A stretch of DNA of 64,000 nucleotides from Chitinophagaceae bacterium (GTDB taxonomy: Bacteria > Bacteroidota > Bacteroidia > Chitinophagales > Chitinophagaceae): contig CANFHA010000008.1 in assembly GCA_947446645.1 (NCBI GenBank), forward strand, positions 62,001 through 126,000, read 5' to 3'. Position 1 is the stretch's first letter. Each line of letters opens with the position of its first letter. The notes beneath the pieces were generated by a model. The model was not told the DNA's origin, searched no databases, and saw only the letters and a list, made by a program, of their open reading frames with translations. Made by a program: the position numbers and the translations under genes. Positions 38,835 to 51,782 of this stretch are shown in pieces.

Positions 38835-41800
38835 TCATTGTACAACTAACTTAGAATTAAACGATATGTTACCGGTCCGGATGGTAACAATATAAACTCC
38901 ATCATTAAGGGTGGAAATATCCAACTGGGCTTTGGCGGAAGAAACTGCCATGTCCATTTCAGCCTTGTAGACTACCCTGCCTGCGAGATCAGTGATGGTA
39001 ACATCAGCAGTACCGATAACCTGTTGCGCCCATTGCACATCCAGCAGGCCAGATGCGGGATTAGGATAGATGCCAATGCTATTTTCATTCACCTGGCTGT
39101 TCACTTTCAGGCTGCTGTATGGGGTAATGGTACCAAGTGAGAGGTGCTGCCTGAAATTGATATCTGTGATCGTTTCACTTCCTGATGCGAGCAATACGGC
39201 ATCAGACGCAGTAGTGTAGTATTTGAATTCTTCGGGGTATATAATATAAGAACCGTTGGCCAGCCCGATAAAAGCGTAAGTCCCATCTGCACGGGTATAG
39301 GTATAGGTAACCACCTGGCCTGAGGAACTGAGCAGATAAACCAACATGCCAGCGGCCGGGGCTCCGCCGCTTGTACCCGAAATAATAAGACCGCTTATGG
39401 ACCCTGTGCCAGCCGGCACTACACCGTGTATCATTGTGATATGCTGAGTATCGGTAGCATTGGTGTGAGTGATGCTTACTGCAGTATCCCAGTAGGGAGT
39501 TGAGGAGCTATAGGTTGGCACATAGCCAGTAATACCGGGAACACCTCCCGATATCTTTGTACGAACGAGGTACGTGCCTGCAGCAACACCATTAAACTCA
39601 TAGTATGGAGTGCTGCCATCTGAACAAGCGCACATAGAGTCCATAGCTATCAATGATGTATCGGCCGGGTTGACCTGCATCAACCATACCCTGACTGTGT
39701 CTGCCGATGAGCCACCAGCAACTACATGCCCAAGAATGCGGTTTGCATTCAGCGTAACCGAAGCCGAGGAACTGCAGCCAAAAGCACCAGTACCAACCAC
39801 TGTATAGGTTGTGGTTACAACAGGATTCACAACATTTGATGCACAAGTAGTGCAGGAGAGCCCGGTAGCAGGAAGCCAGACATATGCACCTGCGCCGCTT
39901 GCACTCAGATCAATAGAACTGCTACAACCAGCTGCATTAGCTGATGCGACAACTAACGGTAACGCATATACGGTAACAAGAGCATGGGCAACGCAACCCG
40001 CGGATACTATATAACTGATAGTGTCTACCCCGGGAGCAATGCCAATGACAATACCGGAAGATGCGCCTATAGTTGCCACGGTAGCAATGCCTGGCGTGCT
40101 GCTGCTCCAGGTGCCTTCAAAGGCAATGTCGCTAAGACTTGTGTTATCGCCTACGCATAGTGCACTGACACCGGAAATAAAACCAGGTGTGCTGGTGACT
40201 GAAACGACAAGCGACGCAGAACAACCGGTAGCCAAAGTGTAGCTAATATTTGCAGTACCTGCTGATATCCCGCCTACGGTGCCATCTGCACCAATTGCAG
40301 CAGAGGCAGGAGCATCGCTGAGCCAGGTGCCACCTGCCGGCGCGGAGCTGAGCGAAGAACTGGTACCCACACAGAGCAAGCCCGGGTCCGGAATGGCGGA
40401 GGGAACGGGATTGACTGTATTAGTAGCTGCAACGTAACACCCTGTGGGCAATATGTATGATATGACGGTAGTTCCTGCTGCTAAGCCGGTCACGAGGCCG
40501 CCTGTGCCTATTGACGCAATTGCAACAGAAGAAGAGGACCACGACCCGCCAATACTGGCATCACTTAGCAGCGCACTGCTGCCAGCACAGACAGAATGAC
40601 TACCTAAAATAGTTGCGGGCAATGAATTCACCGAGACAATTTTTGTAACAGAACCAGTACCGTATTTTGTACTGGTGGTATAAGTGAGGGTATCTGATCC
40701 GGGACTTACTCCGATTACCGTATCCGCTGACATTGATGCAGTTCCATTGGAAACTGTCCATACACCACCGGAAGGAACCTGTGTGAAATTAAATTTCGAC
40801 CCGGCACAAACGCTGTTTGCACCGTATATAAGCGTTATCACATTCTCAACTGTATCGGTCATTACTACAGCATTGTCATCAAAGAAAATGCCTGCATGAT
40901 TGAAGATGGTTGTGCCATCGGTAAGGCCTCCTTTCGTCTTAATATGGAATATCAACATGCCTGTGCACTCATTATGGTGACTGCTGTCCAGGAGATCTAT
41001 ACGCGGAAAATCGAACTTTACAATATTGTGCCCGCCTGCATTATAAACAGCTGTGTTCATGACAGCAGTTGCGGCATCTATGCGCAGTGATTTTATATCT
41101 ACATTGTCAGAGAGCGTATCCATTAGGGCTATATTATGTGCAGTATCGTTACCTGTATTTTCAAAGCTGATGGTGTACTGCAATGTTGTACCGGGCAAGA
41201 TGTAGCCACCGGGCACGGCCAACATTTCATTGGGATCGTAAGATGATCTTACGGTATCTATTCTTGTAACATTGTTGTTTGTAGCGTCTGCATCGCCTGA
41301 TATGGGCGTGACAGAATAAGCAGACAGTATGGTATCGCCGGGTGTGAGCGATGCGCCCGGCACAGTAAGTGAATAGGAAATAGTGCGCGAACCGGAAGCC
41401 GCAGATAACGCCGATAAATTCCAGGTAACTGTATTACCCACAACGGTGGCAGGCGAGGGCACCGAACCATCAAAAACGTACTTTGGATTAATGTTCATGG
41501 TCACCACAGCATCTTCTGCAGTGCAATAGCTATTGGTAACCAGTATAGTGCCGGAAGCAACGTGCGCACCTGCAATTGCACTTGTATTTAATGCAAGATC
41601 AAAGCCGCTGGCTGCAGAGCAATTGAATCCGAGGTATTTGGTAGTGATATTATAGCTCAGTGAACTGATGGAATCCGTAATAATACCGCTGCCTGCACAG
41701 GTAAACATCAATCCCGGAGGGCCGGACAATACCCTGAAATTGTAGACGTCACCAGGTATACCATACGCATTGTAGTAGATGCCGCTGGTGGCTGACAGGG

Positions 41801-43268
41801 TATCAACCGGTACACTGTTTGAATCAATTTCCACCAGCAAGGGAAAATAATTATACAGCTCAGTACTGTCTTTTGAGCAGTTACTATTAGCATCGAGGTA
41901 GAACCTTACATCAAAAGTTCTGCATAGCAGGTAATTGTATGAAAAATCGATCGAATCTAATACAGCTGCACCATTCATCAACAATTCCTTGATGGTATAA
42001 GTGCCTGCACTGGCATAGCTATGCGAAACGCTTACATAGGACTGCGGCGATGCCGGCAGCAGTGAACTGGTGTCAGCGGTGCCATCGCCGAAATAGGCAA
42101 TGACTGCAGATGCCAGGGGGCTGGTGGTTAACGTAGATAACGTTATGCCGCTGCAGGTACCACTTTTAAAAATGGAAAAGCTGTCTGCGATGAAATCAGG
42201 CGTAAGCGAAATTTTACGGATCACATAGTTGTTTACATCAGAGACATAGAGATCGCGGTAACGGTACAGCACCGCAGCATAAGGTGAACTGAAAGAAGCC
42301 AGAGTTGCAGGACCGCCATCACCAGAAAATCCACGGGAATAATTTCCTGCTATGGTAGAAATATTACCGGCTGCGTTTATCTTTCTTATGCCAGAAACGG
42401 GAACAGACAGGTCGCTGCCATCTGTTATGTACACATTGCCGGAACTATCTGCCAATATGTGAAACGCTTCTGAAATTGATGCAGCAGTGGCTGCGCCGCC
42501 GTCGCCAGAATAACCTGTTGTACCATTTCCTGCAACAGTAGTGATCACACCGGCAGTATCAATTTTTCTTAACCTGGAATTACCAAAGTCTCCCACGTAC
42601 AGATTTCCTAATGGATCAACACAAAGCGTAGAAGGATAGAGCAGTGATGCTGCAGTAGCAGGTCCACCATCTCCGTCAAATCCACCGACGTCCAGTGATG
42701 GGAACCCGGCAATAGTAGAAATAATACCGGCAGTATCTATTTTTCGTATCACAGATGCAGAATTATCTGCGAGATATATGTTTCCTTTAAAATCACGGGC
42801 TACACCATAAACTGTTTCGATGGATGCACTGCTTGCAGGACCACCGTCTCCACCAGCCCACGAAAGACCATTAATACCCGCAATTTTAGCAATAATTCCT
42901 GTTGAAGTATTGACCTTGCGGATAACATTGTTGGCATCATCTGAGAAAATAATATTGCCTTCTGCATCTACGCACATGCCTGTATTGCCATGAAGCTGTG
43001 CATTGGTTGCAGGACCGCCATTCCCGCTATAACCAGCAACGCCAGTGCCAGCCACAACAGTAATTATTCCTGAGCGGTCAATTTTCTTAATCATGTTACA
43101 ATCTGCACAAGCATAATAAATATTACCTGCCGTGTCAATAGTCATGTGGAGTGGCGCTTCTCCCCCTGGCATGGTAACATATGTGCTTACTACCCCCTGG
43201 CCGAAACACACTGACGCAACCAGCAACAGCCAGGCAACAATGGGTAATAAAAAAACTCGTTTCTTCAT
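38835..43268 (-). CDS. NHL-repeat, Ig-like/DUF11-like, T9SS-sorted secreted protein (about 1480 aa)
   Basis: repeated AGTGVAGYSGNGGPATNAQL...IRKINTAG; YDPNEMLAVPGGYILPGTTLQYTISFENTGNDTAHNI; C-term IYPNPASGLLDVQW. Confidence 0.85.
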   Translation of the reverse strand: MKKRVFLLPIVAWLLLVASVCFGQGVVSTYVTMPGGEAPLHMTIDTAGNIYYACADCNMIKKIDRSGIITVVAGTGVAGYSGNGGPATNAQLHGNTGMCVDAEGNIIFSDDANNVIRKVNTSTGIIAKIAGINGLSWAGGDGGPASSASIETVYGVARDFKGNIYLADNSASVIRKIDTAGIISTIAGFPSLDVGGFDGDGGPATAASLLYPSTLCVDPLGNLYVGDFGNSRLRKIDTAGVITTVAGNGTTGYSGDGGAATAASISEAFHILADSSGNVYITDGSDLSVPVSGIRKINAAGNISTIAGNYSRGFSGDGGPATLASFSSPYAAVLYRYRDLYVSDVNNYVIRKISLTPDFIADSFSIFKSGTCSGITLSTLTTSPLASAVIAYFGDGTADTSSLLPASPQSYVSVSHSYASAGTYTIKELLMNGAAVLDSIDFSYNYLLCRTFDVRFYLDANSNCSKDSTELYNYFPLLVEIDSNSVPVDTLSATSGIYYNAYGIPGDVYNFRVLSGPPGLMFTCAGSGIITDSISSLSYNITTKYLGFNCSAASGFDLALNTSAIAGAHVASGTILVTNSYCTAEDAVVTMNINPKYVFDGSVPSPATVVGNTVTWNLSALSAASGSRTISYSLTVPGASLTPGDTILSAYSVTPISGDADATNNNVTRIDTVRSSYDPNEMLAVPGGYILPGTTLQYTISFENTGNDTAHNIALMDTLSDNVDIKSLRIDAATAVMNTAVYNAGGHNIVKFDFPRIDLLDSSHHNECTGMLIFHIKTKGGLTDGTTIFNHAGIFFDDNAVVMTDTVENVITLIYGANSVCAGSKFNFTQVPSGGVWTVSNGTASMSADTVIGVSPGSDTLTYTTSTKYGTGSVTKIVSVNSLPATILGSHSVCAGSSALLSDASIGGSWSSSSVAIASIGTGGLVTGLAAGTTVISYILPTGCYVAATNTVNPVPSAIPDPGLLCVGTSSSLSSAPAGGTWLSDAPASAAIGADGTVGGISAGTANISYTLATGCSASLVVSVTSTPGFISGVSALCVGDNTSLSDIAFEGTWSSSTPGIATVATIGASSGIVIGIAPGVDTISYIVSAGCVAHALVTVYALPLVVASANAAGCSSSIDLSASGAGAYVWLPATGLSCTTCASNVVNPVVTTTYTVVGTGAFGCSSSASVTLNANRILGHVVAGGSSADTVRVWLMQVNPADTSLIAMDSMCACSDGSTPYYEFNGVAAGTYLVRTKISGGVPGITGYVPTYSSSTPYWDTAVSITHTNATDTQHITMIHGVVPAGTGSISGLIISGTSGGAPAAGMLVYLLSSSGQVVTYTYTRADGTYAFIGLANGSYIIYPEEFKYYTTASDAVLLASGSETITDINFRQHLSLGTITPYSSLKVNSQVNENSIGIYPNPASGLLDVQWAQQVIGTADVTITDLAGRVVYKAEMDMAVSSAKAQLDISTLNDGVYIVTIRTGNISFNSKLVVQ

Positions 43269-43378
43269 GACATACACTTTTGTAGAGACAACGGAATAGG
43301 GCCTTTCATAGGTTTTGGGTTTATGCGTTACTTATAAGGCGTATTATTATAAATAAATGTTAGTACTCTGTTCAATTT

Positions 43379-45947
43379 TTACTTGTCTATTTTTGTTACC
43401 TGCTTTGATTTTACTTTCCTTCCACTGGCATCATACACGGTCAGCAGGTATACCCCGGCGGGTAAGCTGCTCATATCCAGGCTGTTGGTATTTTCCGCTA
43501 ACAGCACCACCCTGCCGTCTGCCGTCGCTACCCGCACCGTTGTTTTATCGCACCATATTACATATTCAGTGCCCCACACCGGGTTTGGGTACAGCTCCAG
43601 GTCATCTGGCAAGCAGCCCGGGTAGTTATAGGGCTGCGATGCCACACGACACCCGAGCGAACTGGTTACTACAACGCCGTATTCACCGCTGCCCGTTACC
43701 GTGAAAGAATCGGATATTGCTCCGGCCACAGCGGTACCGCCCATAATCCACTGATAACCGGCATAACTGTCTTGTCTCCATAAAACGTTTTCTTTGCGTC
43801 TGATTGCCGGCACTTCAGGTAATGGGTTCACAGTTATCTCCATGGCGGCCATTGCTATGCCACATGTATTGCTGATGCTATACCGTATGCTATCCGCACC
43901 GGGCGACACGCCCAATACAATTCCGGTCTGCAGGTCCACCGTTGCTATTACCTCAAAGTCTGAGCTCCAGGTACCGAGTACCAGGCCTCCGTCCATAGCC
44001 ACCTGGGCACCTACGCACACATTGCCAGGCCCCGATATAACCGGCAGCTGTGGGAAGGTATCAACATGTACAATAAAGAAGGTGGTATCAGCACAGGCAG
44101 CATTGCTCACTACATACAATATTTCACCGATTCCGGGATCTTCGGCCGTTACTTTACCCTCATTTACGGTAGCTACTGCATTTACGCTGGCCCATATACC
44201 TCCGGCTTTAGCATCTGTGAGTATTAATGTGTCGCCAATACAAACTGAAGATGAACCTGTTATAGAGCCGGCATCTGGTACGGCATATACCTGTATCACG
44301 CTTATGGCGGTATCTGCACTGCAGCCATTGCTTATCGTATACAGCACCGTGTCCACACCTGGGGATGCACCAGTTACAGTGGCAATATTACCGCTGGCTG
44401 AAAGATGAAGACTGGTGTTACTACAGGCCCATGTGCCCCCCATAAGGTTGTCACTGAGCGAAATTGCCGCCCCCACGCAAGTAGCATCTGTACCGCTTAT
44501 TCTACCTGCACTGGTTATGATCGGTGATACAGAGATAGTCACTATGGTAGTATCTGCCAGCGCTCCATTTGTTACGCGCACCGTAAAATTATCGCTGCCC
44601 AGGTAACTTGCTGCCGGTCTGTATGACATATCGTGCGGCACCAGGCTATTGCCGGTAGATAGCGTATCGTAAGACGCATCAAGATCGCCATGCAGCGGTG
44701 CAGTAACTACACTCCAGCTGTCCGACACCCCTGCTGTATAATCTCTGATGGCCAAAGCAGTATCAAGTGATCGTAGCAGGTCCTGGCAGGCGTTCAGGGT
44801 TTGGTTGTGCCCGTGCGTAAAAGATAATAGTGGTGTCAGCCGGACTTTACGGACCCGTACATTATCAAGGTCAGCAATATAGATGCCGCCATTGTCATCT
44901 CCGCACACTGATAGAGGGCGGTAAAGAAGTGCGTTCACGGCAAGCCCTTCGTCACCTCCAAAAGCAGCAGTGCCCGCGCCAGCCATTGTACCTATAGTGC
45001 CACCTGCACTCACCTTTCTTATGCGATTGTTTTTACAGTCGGCAATAAACAGTTCACCGCTGCCATTTACGTATGCGCCTGTAGGCAGGTTTAGCTTAGC
45101 GGCAGTGGCAGCACTGCCATCTCCGGCATAGCCGTTCCCCGCCACAGTTACTATTAGCCCACCGGCAGCCGGATCGGCCCTGCGGATACGGTTATTCCAG
45201 GCATCGCATATATACACATAGCCTGCCGCATCCGTTGCGATACCCCATATTATTTTAAGCTGGGCTGCAGTAGCCGGGCCTCCGTCTCCACTGAACCCAC
45301 TTGCACCATTGCCGGCAATGGTGCTGATGATGCCTGAAGTGCTCACTTTGCGCACACGGTAGTTGTTAGCATCACCTATGTAGATGTTGCCCGCACCGTC
45401 TACGGCAATGCCGATTGGATTATTCAGTTTGGCGTCCGTTGCAGGCCCGCCATCGCCGTAAAAACCCGCCACACCGCTGCCGGCTACCGTGCTGACAATG
45501 CCGGAAGTATTTATTTTGCGTATTCGGTTATTCGTCTGGTCGGCTACGTATACGTTGCCCGAAGCATCGACAGCAAGCCCCCAGTTAGAACTAAGCTGAG
45601 CAGCTGTAGCGGCAATACCATCGCCATTGAAACCCGGAGTGCCCGTGCCTGCGATGGTAGTTATAATGCCACTGGTATTTACCTTCCGGATGCAATTGTT
45701 CAACTGGTCACTGATGTAGATGTTGCCCGCAGCATCTACCGCTACGCAACCTGGTGAATCAAGGGCTGCAGCGGTTGCAGGGCCATTGTCGCCATAATAT
45801 CCTGTAAGGCCATTGCCGGCCACCGTGTTTATTACTTGTGCACGAACATAAAGACCAGGAAGTGTGAGCAAGGCTATAAAAAATGTAGTCAATACCCATC
45901 GTACGACAGGTATTGACTACATTTTTTCCAGAGGAAAATAGTTTCAC
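43379..45947 (-). CDS. NHL-repeat T9SS-sorted secreted protein, paralogous to the upstream-numbered neighbour; N-terminus possibly frameshifted
   Basis: AGNGLTGYYGDNGPATAAALDSPGCVAVDAAGNIYISDQLNNCIRKVNTSG repeats; LYPNPVWGTEYVIW C-term; called ORF begins 45892 without ATG while MKLFSSGKNVVNTCRTM lies in the adjacent frame. Confidence 0.75.
45878..45927. repeat. perfect 19-bp inverted repeat, 12-nt loop
   Basis: AAAAAATGTAGTCAATACC-catcgtacgaca-GGTATTGACTACATTTTTT. Confidence 0.9.
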
Positions 45948-46011: not shown

Positions 46012-47578
46012 CTACTTAATAAACTTATAGCCTGCTGATAGACGGAAATAAACCGAAGACAGCGGGGCATTCACATCATAGTTACCTACTATGTTGCGGT
46101 TGACTATACTTTGCTCCATGAGCGCATCAAAAAGCCATCTGTGTGTTACTTCATACGTGAAGCCCAGCATGTAACCCACATTCAGCCGGCCAGCTGTTGA
46201 CACCTGGTAAGCGGGCCCATTGTAGTTGGATATAGGGTTTCCGGAATATTGGATACCAGGCCCAACCGGAGTAGTTACCGGTAACACAGGCGTGACTTCG
46301 GAAAAGTCTAGCGACCGTGTAACATCATGTTTTGTAAACGTATTCTCTTTAATACCCGTGAGTTTATTGTATGTGAAATTAGCACCACCATATACCGATA
46401 GCTTTTTACCAAGTTTGTACTTCACCAGTATGGGCAGTTCCAGCTCCAGGTAAGCTCCACCAGTCTTATATGACTTTATGATAGAATCATAAGTAGCAGT
46501 GTACGTGTAATTCGTGGTATAGGAGATGGTGTCAACTGTGCTGCCTATTACAGCCACGTTTGGTGTGCTGGCTCCGTTTTGCTTTGTTTGTCCACCCTCA
46601 ATCACTTTGTAGTAGGTTTGGTTATTGCCTATGCTGCGGGTGCTAAGCTGTGCATATTTTATTGCCGGCTGGGTCATCAGTGCAACTTTTGGGGAAAGGT
46701 TGTATTGCAGGTAAGGCGAAATGACATACTTTGATGCCGCGTTGCTATTAGTTCCTCTTTCATAGCCGGCCTTCATTCCAAGTTCTATCCTGTTGAACAA
46801 TGGCTTTGCAGCTGTTGCTATTTTGTCCTTTTTCGCCGCCTTAGTTTTTGCAACTTCTTTCTTTTGAAGTTGTATTGGCCTTTCCTGTTTGTTCACAGCC
46901 AGATCTTCGTTTTGGGCACCAGCATCTACTTTTTTATTGCTATTCTGATCGCCATTACCGGACGTTTCTTCAATTTGTTCAGATAGCTTCCCTGCCTTAG
47001 CTTTTCCATTCTGTTTGTCGTTCTGCTTAGCATGACCGTTTACAGACACGTTATTCTTTGTAGTTGCCGACTTACTGCGGCTACCGTTCCACTTTTGCTG
47101 ACGTGTGTCTGCGTCTTTGCTGGTAGCTGCCTTTGCTATTAGCTTTTTATCTGCAGGCGTAGCATGAGTTCCTGCGCTTGCGTTATCCGCAGCAGTAGCC
47201 GGTACATTTCGCCGTGCTCCCGTTTACTGATAGCGGCGCCGAAATGGCGTCGCCATTGGCTACTTTGCCACCTTCGGTAGTTGTGGTATTTACAGCCTGT
47301 TGCACAGGGGCTTTAGCTGCAATACTGAGCTCCGTGTTACCAGCGTTCTGGTGGCCTTTGTTCCCCAGTATTTTCTTTACGACGGGTATGCTCAGCACCG
47401 CGACCAATGATACCATGGCTATATGCCCACCCCAACGAAAGGATGGCTTTGGTGCTGAGGGGATCAATCCATCAAGCTGTTTATCCAGTGCCTCCCATAC
47501 GTCAGGTGGAGGTGTCTCCCGGTACCTGCCCAACTTTTCCCTGAAAAAGTCGTCGATATGTTTCAAATAGTTTTTCAC
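46012..47578 (-). CDS. putative dual-membrane-spanning anti-sigma-like protein (cytoplasmic N-term, TM, disordered linker, C-terminal OM beta-barrel); interrupted by apparent 1-nt frameshift near 47219-47221
   Basis: N part (47183-47578): MKNYLKHIDDFFREKLGRYRETPPPDVWEALDKQLDG...HIAMVSLVAVLSIPVVKKIL; C part (46012-47049): charged linker then barrel ending SSVYFRLSAGYKFIK; removing one G of GGG joins ...SVNG|ARRNVPATAADNASAGTHATPADKKLIAKAATSKDADTRQQKWNGSRSKSATTKNNVSVNGHAKQN. Confidence 0.7.
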
Positions 47579-47589
47579 ACGCGCTCCAT

Positions 47590-48210
47590 TTACTTTATCA
47601 ATGCATTTATCTTTTCTTTCAGTCTTCTGCGGGCATCATTGAGGTGCCAACGGCAGTTATTCTGGTTTATATTCAGTATTTCTGCTATTTCCTTATGCGA
47701 ATAATTTTCAAAAACAAACAGGTTAAAAACCTCCCGCTGTGCATCGGGCAGGGTAGCTACTATTTTCAATAGTTCCTTATGCGACAGGTCTTCCACTGAT
47801 CCGTTGCATGACAAAATTAATGGCTTCACCGCTATGGGCCGGGTGTGCTGGTACATATACCGGAGCTTGTAGATGCGCTGTGTATCATGAAACCTTGCAT
47901 ATTCCTCTGAATTAGTGAACTGGAACCGCATGCTTACTTCTTCGTCGGTTGTTAGCTGCTCCTTTGCCTGTATTTTCAAGGCAATCATGTGCGGCGAGAT
48001 CAGATCTGCCTGGCTCACCAGCAGCAAAATGTGGAAGGCAGCATCTGCATCAATGAATACATAGGTTTCAAAAATGAGAATATTGAAATCGGTGTAGGCC
48101 ATGTCCACAAACTGCTCTACACGCTTTGTTACGAAGTCAAGGTTCTGACTTACAATCCTTTGCAACCTTGCCTCTTCATCTTCCACAAACTCATCGGTGG
48201 GCATCTTCAC
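47590..48210 (-). CDS. sigma-70 region-4-like regulator with divergent N-terminal half
   Basis: C-term LPDAQREVFNLFVFENYSHKEIAEILNINQNNCRWHLNDARRRLKEKI is sigma4-like; typical region 2 not recognised; frame open upstream to about 48303 without ATG. Confidence 0.75.
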   Translation of the reverse strand: MKMPTDEFVEDEEARLQRIVSQNLDFVTKRVEQFVDMAYTDFNILIFETYVFIDADAAFHILLLVSQADLISPHMIALKIQAKEQLTTDEEVSMRFQFTNSEEYARFHDTQRIYKLRYMYQHTRPIAVKPLILSCNGSVEDLSHKELLKIVATLPDAQREVFNLFVFENYSHKEIAEILNINQNNCRWHLNDARRRLKEKINALIK

Positions 48211-48384
48211 TTCTTCTGCTACTGTCCAGCCTGCTGGTGGGGTAATATGGCTTAAGATATTGTCTGAAACTTCTTCTATCCTGATATGCGAAATAGTGTA
48301 TGGTTATTTAAGTTTGTTAAAAAGCTTATAAAACCATGCCAGTATTCAGCGCAGGAACTGAGTGAGCAGGATAGGAACAACCAG

Positions 48385-49929
48385 CTATTCGTATTCTAAC
48401 GCGTATAAAGCGTTGTCCTGAAAAATGTAGCTGACCAGTCCGTCAGGGCGCGTCAGTACAAAATTTGTGAAGGCCCGGGCCGGGGTCGCGGCCCGCAGAG
48501 GGATAGGTGCCCACTCCGTAAAATCAGCATCGATTGAGGTCTTCATCCCTGCAGTGTAGTACCGGCCATACATTATCAGTTGACTATGTTTCCGGGTGCC
48601 GTACACGCTTCGCTCGGTATAGTCAATAGACGGAGACATAATACTTCCCTTTCGCGGCTCATAGTATTGTGTTATTACACAGCCTCCATGCATCACTTTG
48701 AGCACTCGGTTCTCATTGGGATCGTAGGTGGTTGTATCTGCTGCCGGCAGATAGGCTATATCATATTTGCACATAAACGGCCCTTTGCGGTCGTTGCCAT
48801 ACTGGTATAGCGTGAGCGGATTTCGGTTATTCGGCATAGCCAGCTGAGCCCAGGTGCGGCAGTTGGCGTCCACGACCCATTCTTCCTTCCAGTCAAATGC
48901 TGATGCTGGCTTACCAGTGGCAAGAAACTTCCGGGTTTTATAGTCATAATCCATTCTCCTGTTAACCACGCCCTCAGTACTACGAGTAAGAACAGTTACC
49001 TGATCTTTAGCAGATAGCCACTTGTAAACCTGCGGTAATCGCAGTGCAGGATATTTAACTGCATACAGGTTACTATCTCTTAGTATAGAGGTAAGGGATA
49101 CCTGGGTGTAGCGATAGGTCGTTGCAACGGTGTTACTGCTACCGAGCGAGGAGTCGTAGATCCGTTCTAACCTGCCGTTGGGGTCATATTCATATTTAAA
49201 GATCCGCTGGTTTGGCTCATAGTTGTTACAATTGTTAGCTATTGATCTATAGTCCGATTCAAGACTGGCCAACAATCCATTTTCATTAAAGACATACCTA
49301 TTGTACCACTTGGTGTTGATATTGAGCCTGCCTTTTATCTTTCCACAATAGGTGCTTGAGTAGCCCGGGTTTTCAAAATGGCTATGACCTGTGCCTGTGA
49401 CACCGATACTCACAAGTTTGCCGCCATTGCGCTGATAACCATAAGAGACAGTATCATTGCCTGCAGTTCCAGCCACTGAATCAACAGCAATCGTATTCTT
49501 TCTTAGCAGAAAGCCATCACTGTCATAATCCAGGAAGCCTTGCTCCAGCACTTTTGCCTGTGCCATAATGCTATCAAGCAACAACCCCATTCTTACAGGT
49601 AGTGTATCATCTATAAATGATGCAATTTCCGGGTAGCGCACTATATCCACCTTTTTAAATCTTACGTGATGATAACCAGTTGCGGCTATATCATTGTACC
49701 TGAGCAGCGGCAACAAACTATTTGTGAAAGAGCTTGTGTTCGTATCCCGGCTTTCCTGTGGGTTACGTGAGTAGTCTCCTAAGTAATTGCTGAGCAATCC
49801 GGTTACGTGCAGCCTTATGATCAGGCTGTCTTCCCAGCCCGCAATATAAAAAGGGCGTGCCTGTTGGCAGTAAACGGAAATTGGCAACAGCAAAACCAAT
49901 AGCAAAAGCCTGTAGAACCCGGGATACAT
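48385..49929 (-). CDS. hypothetical secreted protein with YD-like segments
   Basis: signal peptide MYPGFYRLLLLVLLLPISVYCQQ; YKYEYDPNGRLERIYD-like segments. Confidence 0.55.
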   Translation of the reverse strand: MYPGFYRLLLLVLLLPISVYCQQARPFYIAGWEDSLIIRLHVTGLLSNYLGDYSRNPQESRDTNTSSFTNSLLPLLRYNDIAATGYHHVRFKKVDIVRYPEIASFIDDTLPVRMGLLLDSIMAQAKVLEQGFLDYDSDGFLLRKNTIAVDSVAGTAGNDTVSYGYQRNGGKLVSIGVTGTGHSHFENPGYSSTYCGKIKGRLNINTKWYNRYVFNENGLLASLESDYRSIANNCNNYEPNQRIFKYEYDPNGRLERIYDSSLGSSNTVATTYRYTQVSLTSILRDSNLYAVKYPALRLPQVYKWLSAKDQVTVLTRSTEGVVNRRMDYDYKTRKFLATGKPASAFDWKEEWVVDANCRTWAQLAMPNNRNPLTLYQYGNDRKGPFMCKYDIAYLPAADTTTYDPNENRVLKVMHGGCVITQYYEPRKGSIMSPSIDYTERSVYGTRKHSQLIMYGRYYTAGMKTSIDADFTEWAPIPLRAATPARAFTNFVLTRPDGLVSYIFQDNALYALEYE

Positions 49930-49954
49930 TCCAAACAAAGGTAGGGCACGTGAC

Positions 49955-51181
49955 TTATACCTCAGTATAAGCCAGAGACTTGCCAAATGTCTCTGAAAGC
50001 AGGGAGGCGGAGAGTATAGCCAGTCCCCACACGATGAAGCCAGTGACCATAAGACCGCCGGTAAGATCGAGATGAAAAACGCGCTCAAAAAACTGGTGCA
50101 GCGGGATAAGCAGCACCAGCGCTCCACGCATGAAGTTAGTTACCGTAGCTGTAACCGTTACCCGCAGATTAGTACCAAAATGCTCTGCGGTGCTTGTAAC
50201 AAACACTGAAAGATAGCCGCAGCCAAGGCCCATAAAGAAGGAGGTAATACTCAGTTGCTCTCCCTTGCCTATGCTTACGAAATGGCATATTGTTGCTACC
50301 ACGCCCATAGCCATAAACGCCAGTAGTATTTTCTTCCGGCTCCTGAATACCTGGCTCAGTATGCCGCTGGAAAGATCGCCTGCGGATATACCCACCTGGA
50401 ACAGAATGAAGCACGTAGAGAGCTTCAGCCCGACTATGTGGTGCGCTTTGGCGATCTCAGGTGAAAGGGTAATGAGCAAGCCTACGCTGTACCATATAGG
50501 AACACCCATAAGTATGCAGGCTACATATTTCAACGCCCTCTTCCGAGAGGAGAACAAAATCAATAACGATCCTCTTTTCTCGCCCAGTGTTTTTGCCTCC
50601 ATAAACATTGACGACTCAAATGAACGCAGACGCAGCACCAGCAATATACCACCTGCTATACCGGCGGCCATAAATGCATGCCGCCATGGCAACACATCGC
50701 CGATGAGCCCGGCGGTTACTGCACCAAGGGCACCGAGTGTAGCTACCAGTATAGTACCATAGCCACGCCGCTCTATGGACATACTCTCAGATACCAGCGT
50801 GATGCCTGAGCCAAGCTCACCGGCAAGCCCAACACCAGCAAGCAATCGAATGACTGCATAGGTATTGACATCGTGCACATAGGCGTTGGCAAAATTGGCG
50901 AGGGAGTAGAGAAGTATAGACCCGTACAGTACAGTTACACGTCCCTTCTTATCCGCTATTATACCGGTAATGATACCGCCTATCATCATACCAGCCATCT
51001 GTATAGAAAGTAACTTCTCGCCCGCAGTGGTGAGCTCAGTACCAGATAAACCAAGATCCCTTAGCGAAGGAATTCGGTATACATTGAACAGGAAGAGATC
51101 AAAGGCATCTATAAAGAAGCCAATGCCTGCGACAAGCACAGCAATGTTGAATGGCGAGTGGTATATTTTATCGGTGTTCAA
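49955..51181 (-). CDS. MFS transporter
   Basis: about 12 TM; GFFIDAFDLFLFNVYRI...GGIITGIIADKKGRVTVLYGSILLYS...LLAGVGLAGELGSGITLVSESM. Confidence 0.92.
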   Translation of the reverse strand: MNTDKIYHSPFNIAVLVAGIGFFIDAFDLFLFNVYRIPSLRDLGLSGTELTTAGEKLLSIQMAGMMIGGIITGIIADKKGRVTVLYGSILLYSLANFANAYVHDVNTYAVIRLLAGVGLAGELGSGITLVSESMSIERRGYGTILVATLGALGAVTAGLIGDVLPWRHAFMAAGIAGGILLVLRLRSFESSMFMEAKTLGEKRGSLLILFSSRKRALKYVACILMGVPIWYSVGLLITLSPEIAKAHHIVGLKLSTCFILFQVGISAGDLSSGILSQVFRSRKKILLAFMAMGVVATICHFVSIGKGEQLSITSFFMGLGCGYLSVFVTSTAEHFGTNLRVTVTATVTNFMRGALVLLIPLHQFFERVFHLDLTGGLMVTGFIVWGLAILSASLLSETFGKSLAYTEV

Positions 51182-51257: not shown

Positions 51258-51782
51258 TTAACCCTGTACTGTTTTGAAGGAGGCAATAAACTTATCGGCG
51301 CTGATGGGTATCCCTGTTTTGAGACCAAAAATGGTAATTAGGGAATACTTGTATTTGTTTATCAGGTAGATGCGATCCTTGCCTGTGTACTCATCGGTAA
51401 CAAAAGTAAACTCGATGTAGGGAGTTGGGCCAAGATTGGTTTCCAGTGTGGTTACCTTAATGGCGTTCATGCCGGCTGTGGCACCATCGCGCTCGTTTTC
51501 CAGTATCTGCTTAATGGTCTGATCCTTGGGGTAGAATGTGCGCATGTCTATCCAGCCTGCCATGTACACTTCGCTCTCAGAGGCGGCGTAGGTAGCAATG
51601 TTTACTTTAAAGATAACACCATCGTCTGTGCGGTCGTCTTGCGAACTTTCTTCAGGGGTGCCGGGGAATTCTACAACAAAATGACCTTCAGCCGACGTAT
51701 ACTTTACCCCATCACCCTTAGGCCTGAAGCCGGAGAACAAAACCACAATTGCCAGCAGCGGAATAAATGCGAACCTTTTCAT
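51258..51782 (-). CDS. hypothetical secreted protein
   Basis: MKRFAFIPLLAIVVLFSGF signal; 174 aa. Confidence 0.6.
   Translation of the reverse strand: MKRFAFIPLLAIVVLFSGFRPKGDGVKYTSAEGHFVVEFPGTPEESSQDDRTDDGVIFKVNIATYAASESEVYMAGWIDMRTFYPKDQTIKQILENERDGATAGMNAIKVTTLETNLGPTPYIEFTFVTDEYTGKDRIYLINKYKYSLITIFGLKTGIPISADKFIASFKTVQG

Follow-up and report, generated by a model that had tools for sequence, protein, structure and literature searches.

Does a minus-strand gene pair in a Chitinophagaceae genome encode a switch that couples the state of the outer membrane to transcription, as a reading of the sequence alone had proposed by comparison with the Dma anti-sigma factors of Bacteroides thetaiotaomicron? 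We analysed the pair within a stretch of 64,000 nucleotides (the window, to which plain coordinates refer), together with its intact counterparts in other genomes. The locus in the window is the decayed remnant of a sigma/dual-membrane-spanning anti-sigma switch. Our joint reading, to which we assign a probability of roughly 0.75, is that a Dma/Reo-type ECF sigma/anti-sigma operon has recently been broken here, and that its intact orthologs drive their own operon and a regulon of T9SS surface proteins.

The anti-sigma gene is interrupted by a frameshift

On the minus strand, three open reading frames follow one another, 47590-48210, 47183-47578 and 46012-47049, the last two in different frames. 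Next comes the intact third gene of the conserved cluster (43379-45892, minus strand), which encodes an NHL-repeat, T9SS-sorted protein with NHL and Por_Secre_tail domains; most loci of this subtype likewise have an NHL-repeat T9SS protein behind the anti-sigma.

The N-terminal anti-sigma ORF (47183-47578, minus strand; 85% identical to the intact G015 ortholog where the two align) bears out the short cytoplasmic N-terminus and single membrane segment described in the sequence-only reading: a cytoplasmic domain of about 50 aa is followed by one hydrophobic segment, the TM helix (about 47372-47428), and by the start of a periplasmic linker. Its motif, ID..F.E.L....E.PP..W..L...L, is nearly invariant in the window and the orthologs. 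The long, polar, K/Q/N-rich linker reported between the TM helix and the barrel was confirmed as well. Its remaining part (46797-47220, minus strand) brings the distance from anti-sigma domain to barrel to about 200 aa, as in the orthologs, and has low AF2 confidence where it was modelled.

The C-terminal domain (46012-46797, minus strand), 57-58% identical to that of the G015 ortholog, had been described as barrel-like, and structure prediction agrees. For the ORF 46012-47049, which ends in SSVYFRLSAGYKFIK, an AF2 model built with 36 relatives reached a mean pLDDT of 82.6, with values mostly >90 from residue ~90 onwards, and consists almost entirely of strands, as expected for an outer-membrane beta-barrel. 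Foldseek matched this model to OmpW, OmpA, Ail and FapF. The TM-scores were modest (the best, 0.57 by target length, to OmpW), probably because of the disordered N-terminus and the long strands. The PF13568 match of the barrel ORF is weak and under the curated cut-off. A sequence search of the PDB gave no match.

Overlap between the two open frames is confined to about 47183-47223 (minus strand), where three-frame translation places the loss of the reading frame that the sequence-only reading had implied; 41 of the 42 related loci described below have no such break. A programmed frameshift seems unlikely, as no slippery site is apparent in the overlap.

The sigma gene is a chimera

A sigma-region-4 protein had been noted at 47590-48210, and region 4 is indeed found at the C-terminus of this ORF (47590-47796, minus strand; PF08281, E=2.8e-14), where its identity to the corresponding region of the intact G015 sigma is 91-93%; residues ~136-206 are up to 91-93% identical to orthologous sigma factors. 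As a complete sigma factor, however, the ORF does not stand: Pfam detected no region 2 in it, a region that the intact ortholog carries (PF04542, E=3.8e-9), and residues ~1-130 match a free-standing protein of no known family, here called X. Members of X are proteins of 155-165 aa found in the source genome (G000) and in others, and they match residues ~3-130 with E-values down to ~1e-15. The X-derived segment (47821-48303, minus strand), fused in frame to the sigma remnant, is 33-36% identical to such proteins (E ~1e-11 to 1e-15; relatives aligned on G000:C1, G014:C52 and G016:C35), and the homology extends 5' of the listed GTG start at 48210 to about 48285, a stretch that holds no ATG. By these comparisons the sigma gene is a chimera, in which region 2 appears to have been replaced in frame by the unrelated X.

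The displaced half was not found elsewhere in the source genome, where the best match to region 2 is a paralogue on contig C15 at 57%, and relocation of the sigma half was thus ruled out. Of the 35 genus genomes searched, no other has the fusion, and seven of the 35 contain a match to the X part. An insertion near the breakpoint is likely, since the counterpart of the gene at 51258-51782 lies about 1.5 kb from the sigma gene in G001. In the window, a 580-aa ORF and an MFS transporter (48385-51181) are located between X and that gene.

Folding of the fusion from its single sequence was uninformative (pLDDT 39). An origin of X as a phage protein or a protein of known domain was discarded, its relatives having no match in Pfam, NCBIfam or PHROGs. 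Members of the family occur at L008:1468-1935, L071:9111-9599 and L072:10052-10519.

Intact orthologs and relation to Dma and Reo

A single scan of reference genomes yielded 42 related loci, whose anti-sigmas were gathered by BLAST and profiles and some of which stop at contig ends. Most belong to MAGs named Chitinophagaceae, Flavipsychrobacter, Taibaiella or uncultured Bacteroidetes; the others include Taibaiella soli, whose contig holds an intact pair (L106), and two Roseivirga, and the two Roseivirga anti-sigmas are short and without a barrel match. An ECF sigma with regions 2 and 4 lies directly upstream of the anti-sigma in all 42. Visible damage is limited to one locus, L074 (the record behind G001), whose sigma and anti-sigma each contain a GAA-to-TAA nonsense codon. 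The intact ortholog sigma passes the general ECF model TIGR02937; NCBIfam sigma_PG0214 was rejected as its identity, with a score under the cut-off of that model. Linker lengths form two groups, of about 183-253 and 520-728 residues, plus one of 377, and the source genome itself holds an intact paralogous sigma/anti-sigma pair of the long-linker group on contig C15. In one 1046-aa anti-sigma (L004:5224-8364), the linker of ~728 aa is well beyond the length needed to cross the periplasm.

Dma1/Das1 and Dma2/Das2 of B. thetaiotaomicron (PMC13088901) have the same layout, with an N-terminal anti-sigma domain, a TM helix, a long disordered tether, a C-terminal barrel and an adjacent ECF sigma, and the anti-sigma of EcfO/Reo in Bacteroides fragilis and Phocaeicola vulgatus is likewise reported to reach from the cytoplasm to the surface with a barrel (PMC9308784, PMC13114119). 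The anti-sigma domain with one TM helix, the disordered tether and the C-terminal barrel are all present in the window. The anti-sigma is one continuous polypeptide in the intact orthologs but is split by the frameshift in the window, and the adjacent ECF sigma gene, complete in all 42 related loci, lacks region 2 there.

A profile of the anti-sigma domain matched 70 of 297 Bacteroidota genomes, the source genome included, with a sigma gene upstream in each of the 30 loci that were read; the anti-sigmas of some of these loci are shorter and have no barrel-like C-terminus. In Bacteroidales genomes bearing NigD_N, the profile matched a protein of 410-445 aa downstream of an ECF sigma (E 6.4e-7 to 9.9e-5), and in two of them (G280 and G288) the profile-matched sigma/barrel pair is found about 1 kb from nigD. 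Because the regulons of EcfO/Reo and of Dma1 include nigD genes (PMC13114119, PMC13088901), this is the setting expected for EcfO/Reo or Dma1; the likening is by the nigD neighbour, and no record names these pairs Dma or Reo. The source genome has no match to NigD_N.

Thus, the assignment of the pair to a Dma-like family in a different lineage holds: judged by homology to the nigD-adjacent Bacteroidales pairs, architecture and adjacency (42 of 42), the system is of the Dma type in Chitinophagaceae, and it is defective in the window copy. A barrel is predicted and sigma and anti-sigma genes are adjacent in all related loci, both in keeping with the sequence-only reading. At several loci with a sigma upstream (L142, L150, L153, L156, L158, L162-L165 and L167), the anti-sigma is short, at 226-334 aa, and shares the N-terminal domain but has no barrel-like C-terminus.

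A subtype-wide promoter and a predicted T9SS cargo regulon

Upstream of the sigma genes of the window's subtype, CTAACA and CGCCT occur at a fixed spacing in 18 of 18 cases, defining the subtype promoter CTAACATTT-N12-ACGCCTA (consensus also written TACTAACATTT-N12-ACGCCTAT); in the other subtype the -35 is mostly unchanged, and CGTC stands where this one has CGCC. The combined pattern, CTAACATT-N14-CGYCWA, which pools both subtypes, gave 151 matches versus 6 for the reversed control (sums over 35 genomes). We fetched 60 site regions and read the ORF behind each site. Of the sites read, three stand before sigma genes and about 12 before long ORFs that have a signal-like N-terminus and continue past the end of the fetched stretch. 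For about a quarter of those examined, there is no clear target.

Por_Secre_tail was detected in 31 of the 35 complete downstream proteins scanned, and CHU_C, another T9SS signal domain, in two that possibly overlap the 31; this cargo fraction refers to complete ORFs of usable length. In the whole source genome, Por_Secre_tail has at least 150 matches, estimated at about 4% of genes. A rougher test by tail pattern, again on complete ORFs, was positive for 22 of 26 behind type A sites and 10 of 12 behind type B sites versus 32 of 163 in a background drawn from the same T9SS-rich neighbourhood; three of the failures are sigma genes. The sigma is linked to this promoter by association, and the regulon is a predicted one. 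The subtype-wide sigma promoter and the predicted T9SS cargo regulon are what is new here.

In the window, no consensus promoter was found at the sigma gene. A search for a sigma promoter between the anti-sigma and the NHL gene found none. A predicted sigma-dependent promoter, CTAACATT-N14-CGCCTT, is located at 43336-43363 (minus strand); it has one mismatch to the consensus and, taken alone, is within chance for 64 kb, and the CGCCTT form is found at the same place in seven relatives (G015, G001, G024, G019, G050, G047 and G044). The predicted target (38835-43277, minus strand) starts 58 bp after the site and encodes a T9SS-sorted surface protein of 1480 aa that contains NHL-like repeats and a T9SS sorting domain (E=4.2e-15). 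One-mismatch sites number four in G000 and 7-13 in seven other genomes. At the C15 pair, two divergent one-mismatch sites (L004:4492-4574) lie between the sigma gene and the gene of a 293-aa protein on the opposite strand. Such divergent site pairs recur in several genomes.

Age and reality of the damage

With region 2 and the sigma promoter lost and the anti-sigma frameshifted, the window pair should no longer act as a switch, so that the proposed coupling of the outer membrane to transcription is unlikely here, although it fits the intact orthologs and the C15 pair of the same genome. A truncated membrane anti-sigma from the N-terminal ORF and an X-region 4 protein could be made. In a branch model of 358 codons, omega was 0.14 on the window branch versus 0.095 elsewhere (2dlnL 1.4, not significant), so that selection on this branch shows no significant relaxation. 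Purifying selection thus prevailed along most of the branch, and the lesions are therefore young, or partly assembly error.

The extreme form of the latter, in which the genes are intact in the organism and both chimera and frameshift are artefacts of assembly, appears unlikely to us. It is consistent with the purifying selection on the window copy, with the frequency of single-base shifts as errors and with the origin of both lesions in one draft genome of 32 contigs. However, the chimera lies inside a 245-kb contig as a replacement that keeps the frame, and no copy of the displaced region 2 was found in the rest of the genome. The sigma gene also lacks its own promoter, and G000 is the lowest in type A-like sites among the eight genomes compared.

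We regard it as still less probable that the fusion is a new working regulator, in which X is the sensor and region 4, in the absence of region 2, binds CTAACATT and acts, for instance, as a repressor or competitor. Nearly all of X is joined in frame to region 4, which is complete and matches the ortholog at 91-93% identity, and a target-like promoter is retained at 43336-43363, but the fusion occurs in a single one of the 35 genus genomes, has no clear start codon 5' of the X homology, stands beside a broken anti-sigma and has a fold that could not be predicted (pLDDT 39). A last alternative treats the barrel as an ordinary outer-membrane protein and the N-terminal ORF as a small gene in its own right, with no anti-sigma function. 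It can be dismissed with little hesitation, for all that the window shows two distinct ORFs and the Pfam barrel match is under the curated cut-off: the intact orthologs have one continuous ORF, always just downstream of an ECF sigma, and the N-terminal motif, which follows a sigma gene in 30 of 30 loci read, shows conservation throughout the phylum.

Proposed mechanism and comparison with other regulators of the T9SS

Architecture, adjacency, homology to the Bacteroidales pairs, promoter and cargo enrichment were computed; sigma binding, sensing by the barrel and reading of the promoter by the sigma are proposed from gene position and from the Dma/Reo literature. In the intact orthologs, the cytoplasmic domain of ~50 aa would retain the ECF sigma at the inner membrane, and the TM helix and flexible periplasmic tether would connect this domain to the outer-membrane barrel. 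A signal at the barrel would free the sigma, which might then transcribe both the operon that encodes it and a small set of genes for surface proteins exported by the T9SS, through CTAACATTT-N12-ACGCCTA. More tentatively, and with the odds against it in our estimate, the barrel could sense T9SS surface proteins as they are displayed or secreted and, via the tether, set transcription of the same class of cargo, in a direct feedback loop with subtype-specific promoters sharing one -35.

These results would take the Dma/Reo class beyond gut Bacteroidales and into environmental Chitinophagaceae, with the window copy as an illustration of how such a switch decays. They also supply a concrete promoter and a testable target class, T9SS cargo, so that sensing by the barrel could be asked via defined promoters. 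The reported outputs of Dma/Das are vesiculation, nigD1 and PUL expression (PMC13088901), whereas that of the Chitinophagaceae system is predicted T9SS cargo. EcfO/Reo, too, differs, as it responds to toxins, envelope stress and oxygen and has a regulon with nigD genes, not T9SS cargo (PMC9308784, PMC13114119).

The literature searched, which was of limited extent, yielded no anti-sigma of the barrel type with a regulon of cargo genes. Control of the T9SS by ECF sigma factors is known in Porphyromonas gingivalis (PMC4800418) and has been suggested in Flavobacterium psychrophilum (PMC9723704). In the PorY-PorX-SigP cascade of P. gingivalis (PMC4800418, PMC7712824), an ECF sigma likewise controls T9SS genes and the T9SS-exported PorA feeds in, but the cascade is built on a two-component system, acts on secretion components and, as reported, includes no barrel anti-sigma. 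The SM6 promoters of F. psychrophilum, described together with an ECF/anti-sigma pair (PMC9723704), have targets that include the T9SS machinery proteins GldN and PorU; unlike that set, the predicted targets in Chitinophagaceae are cargo proteins with their own -35/-10 pair.
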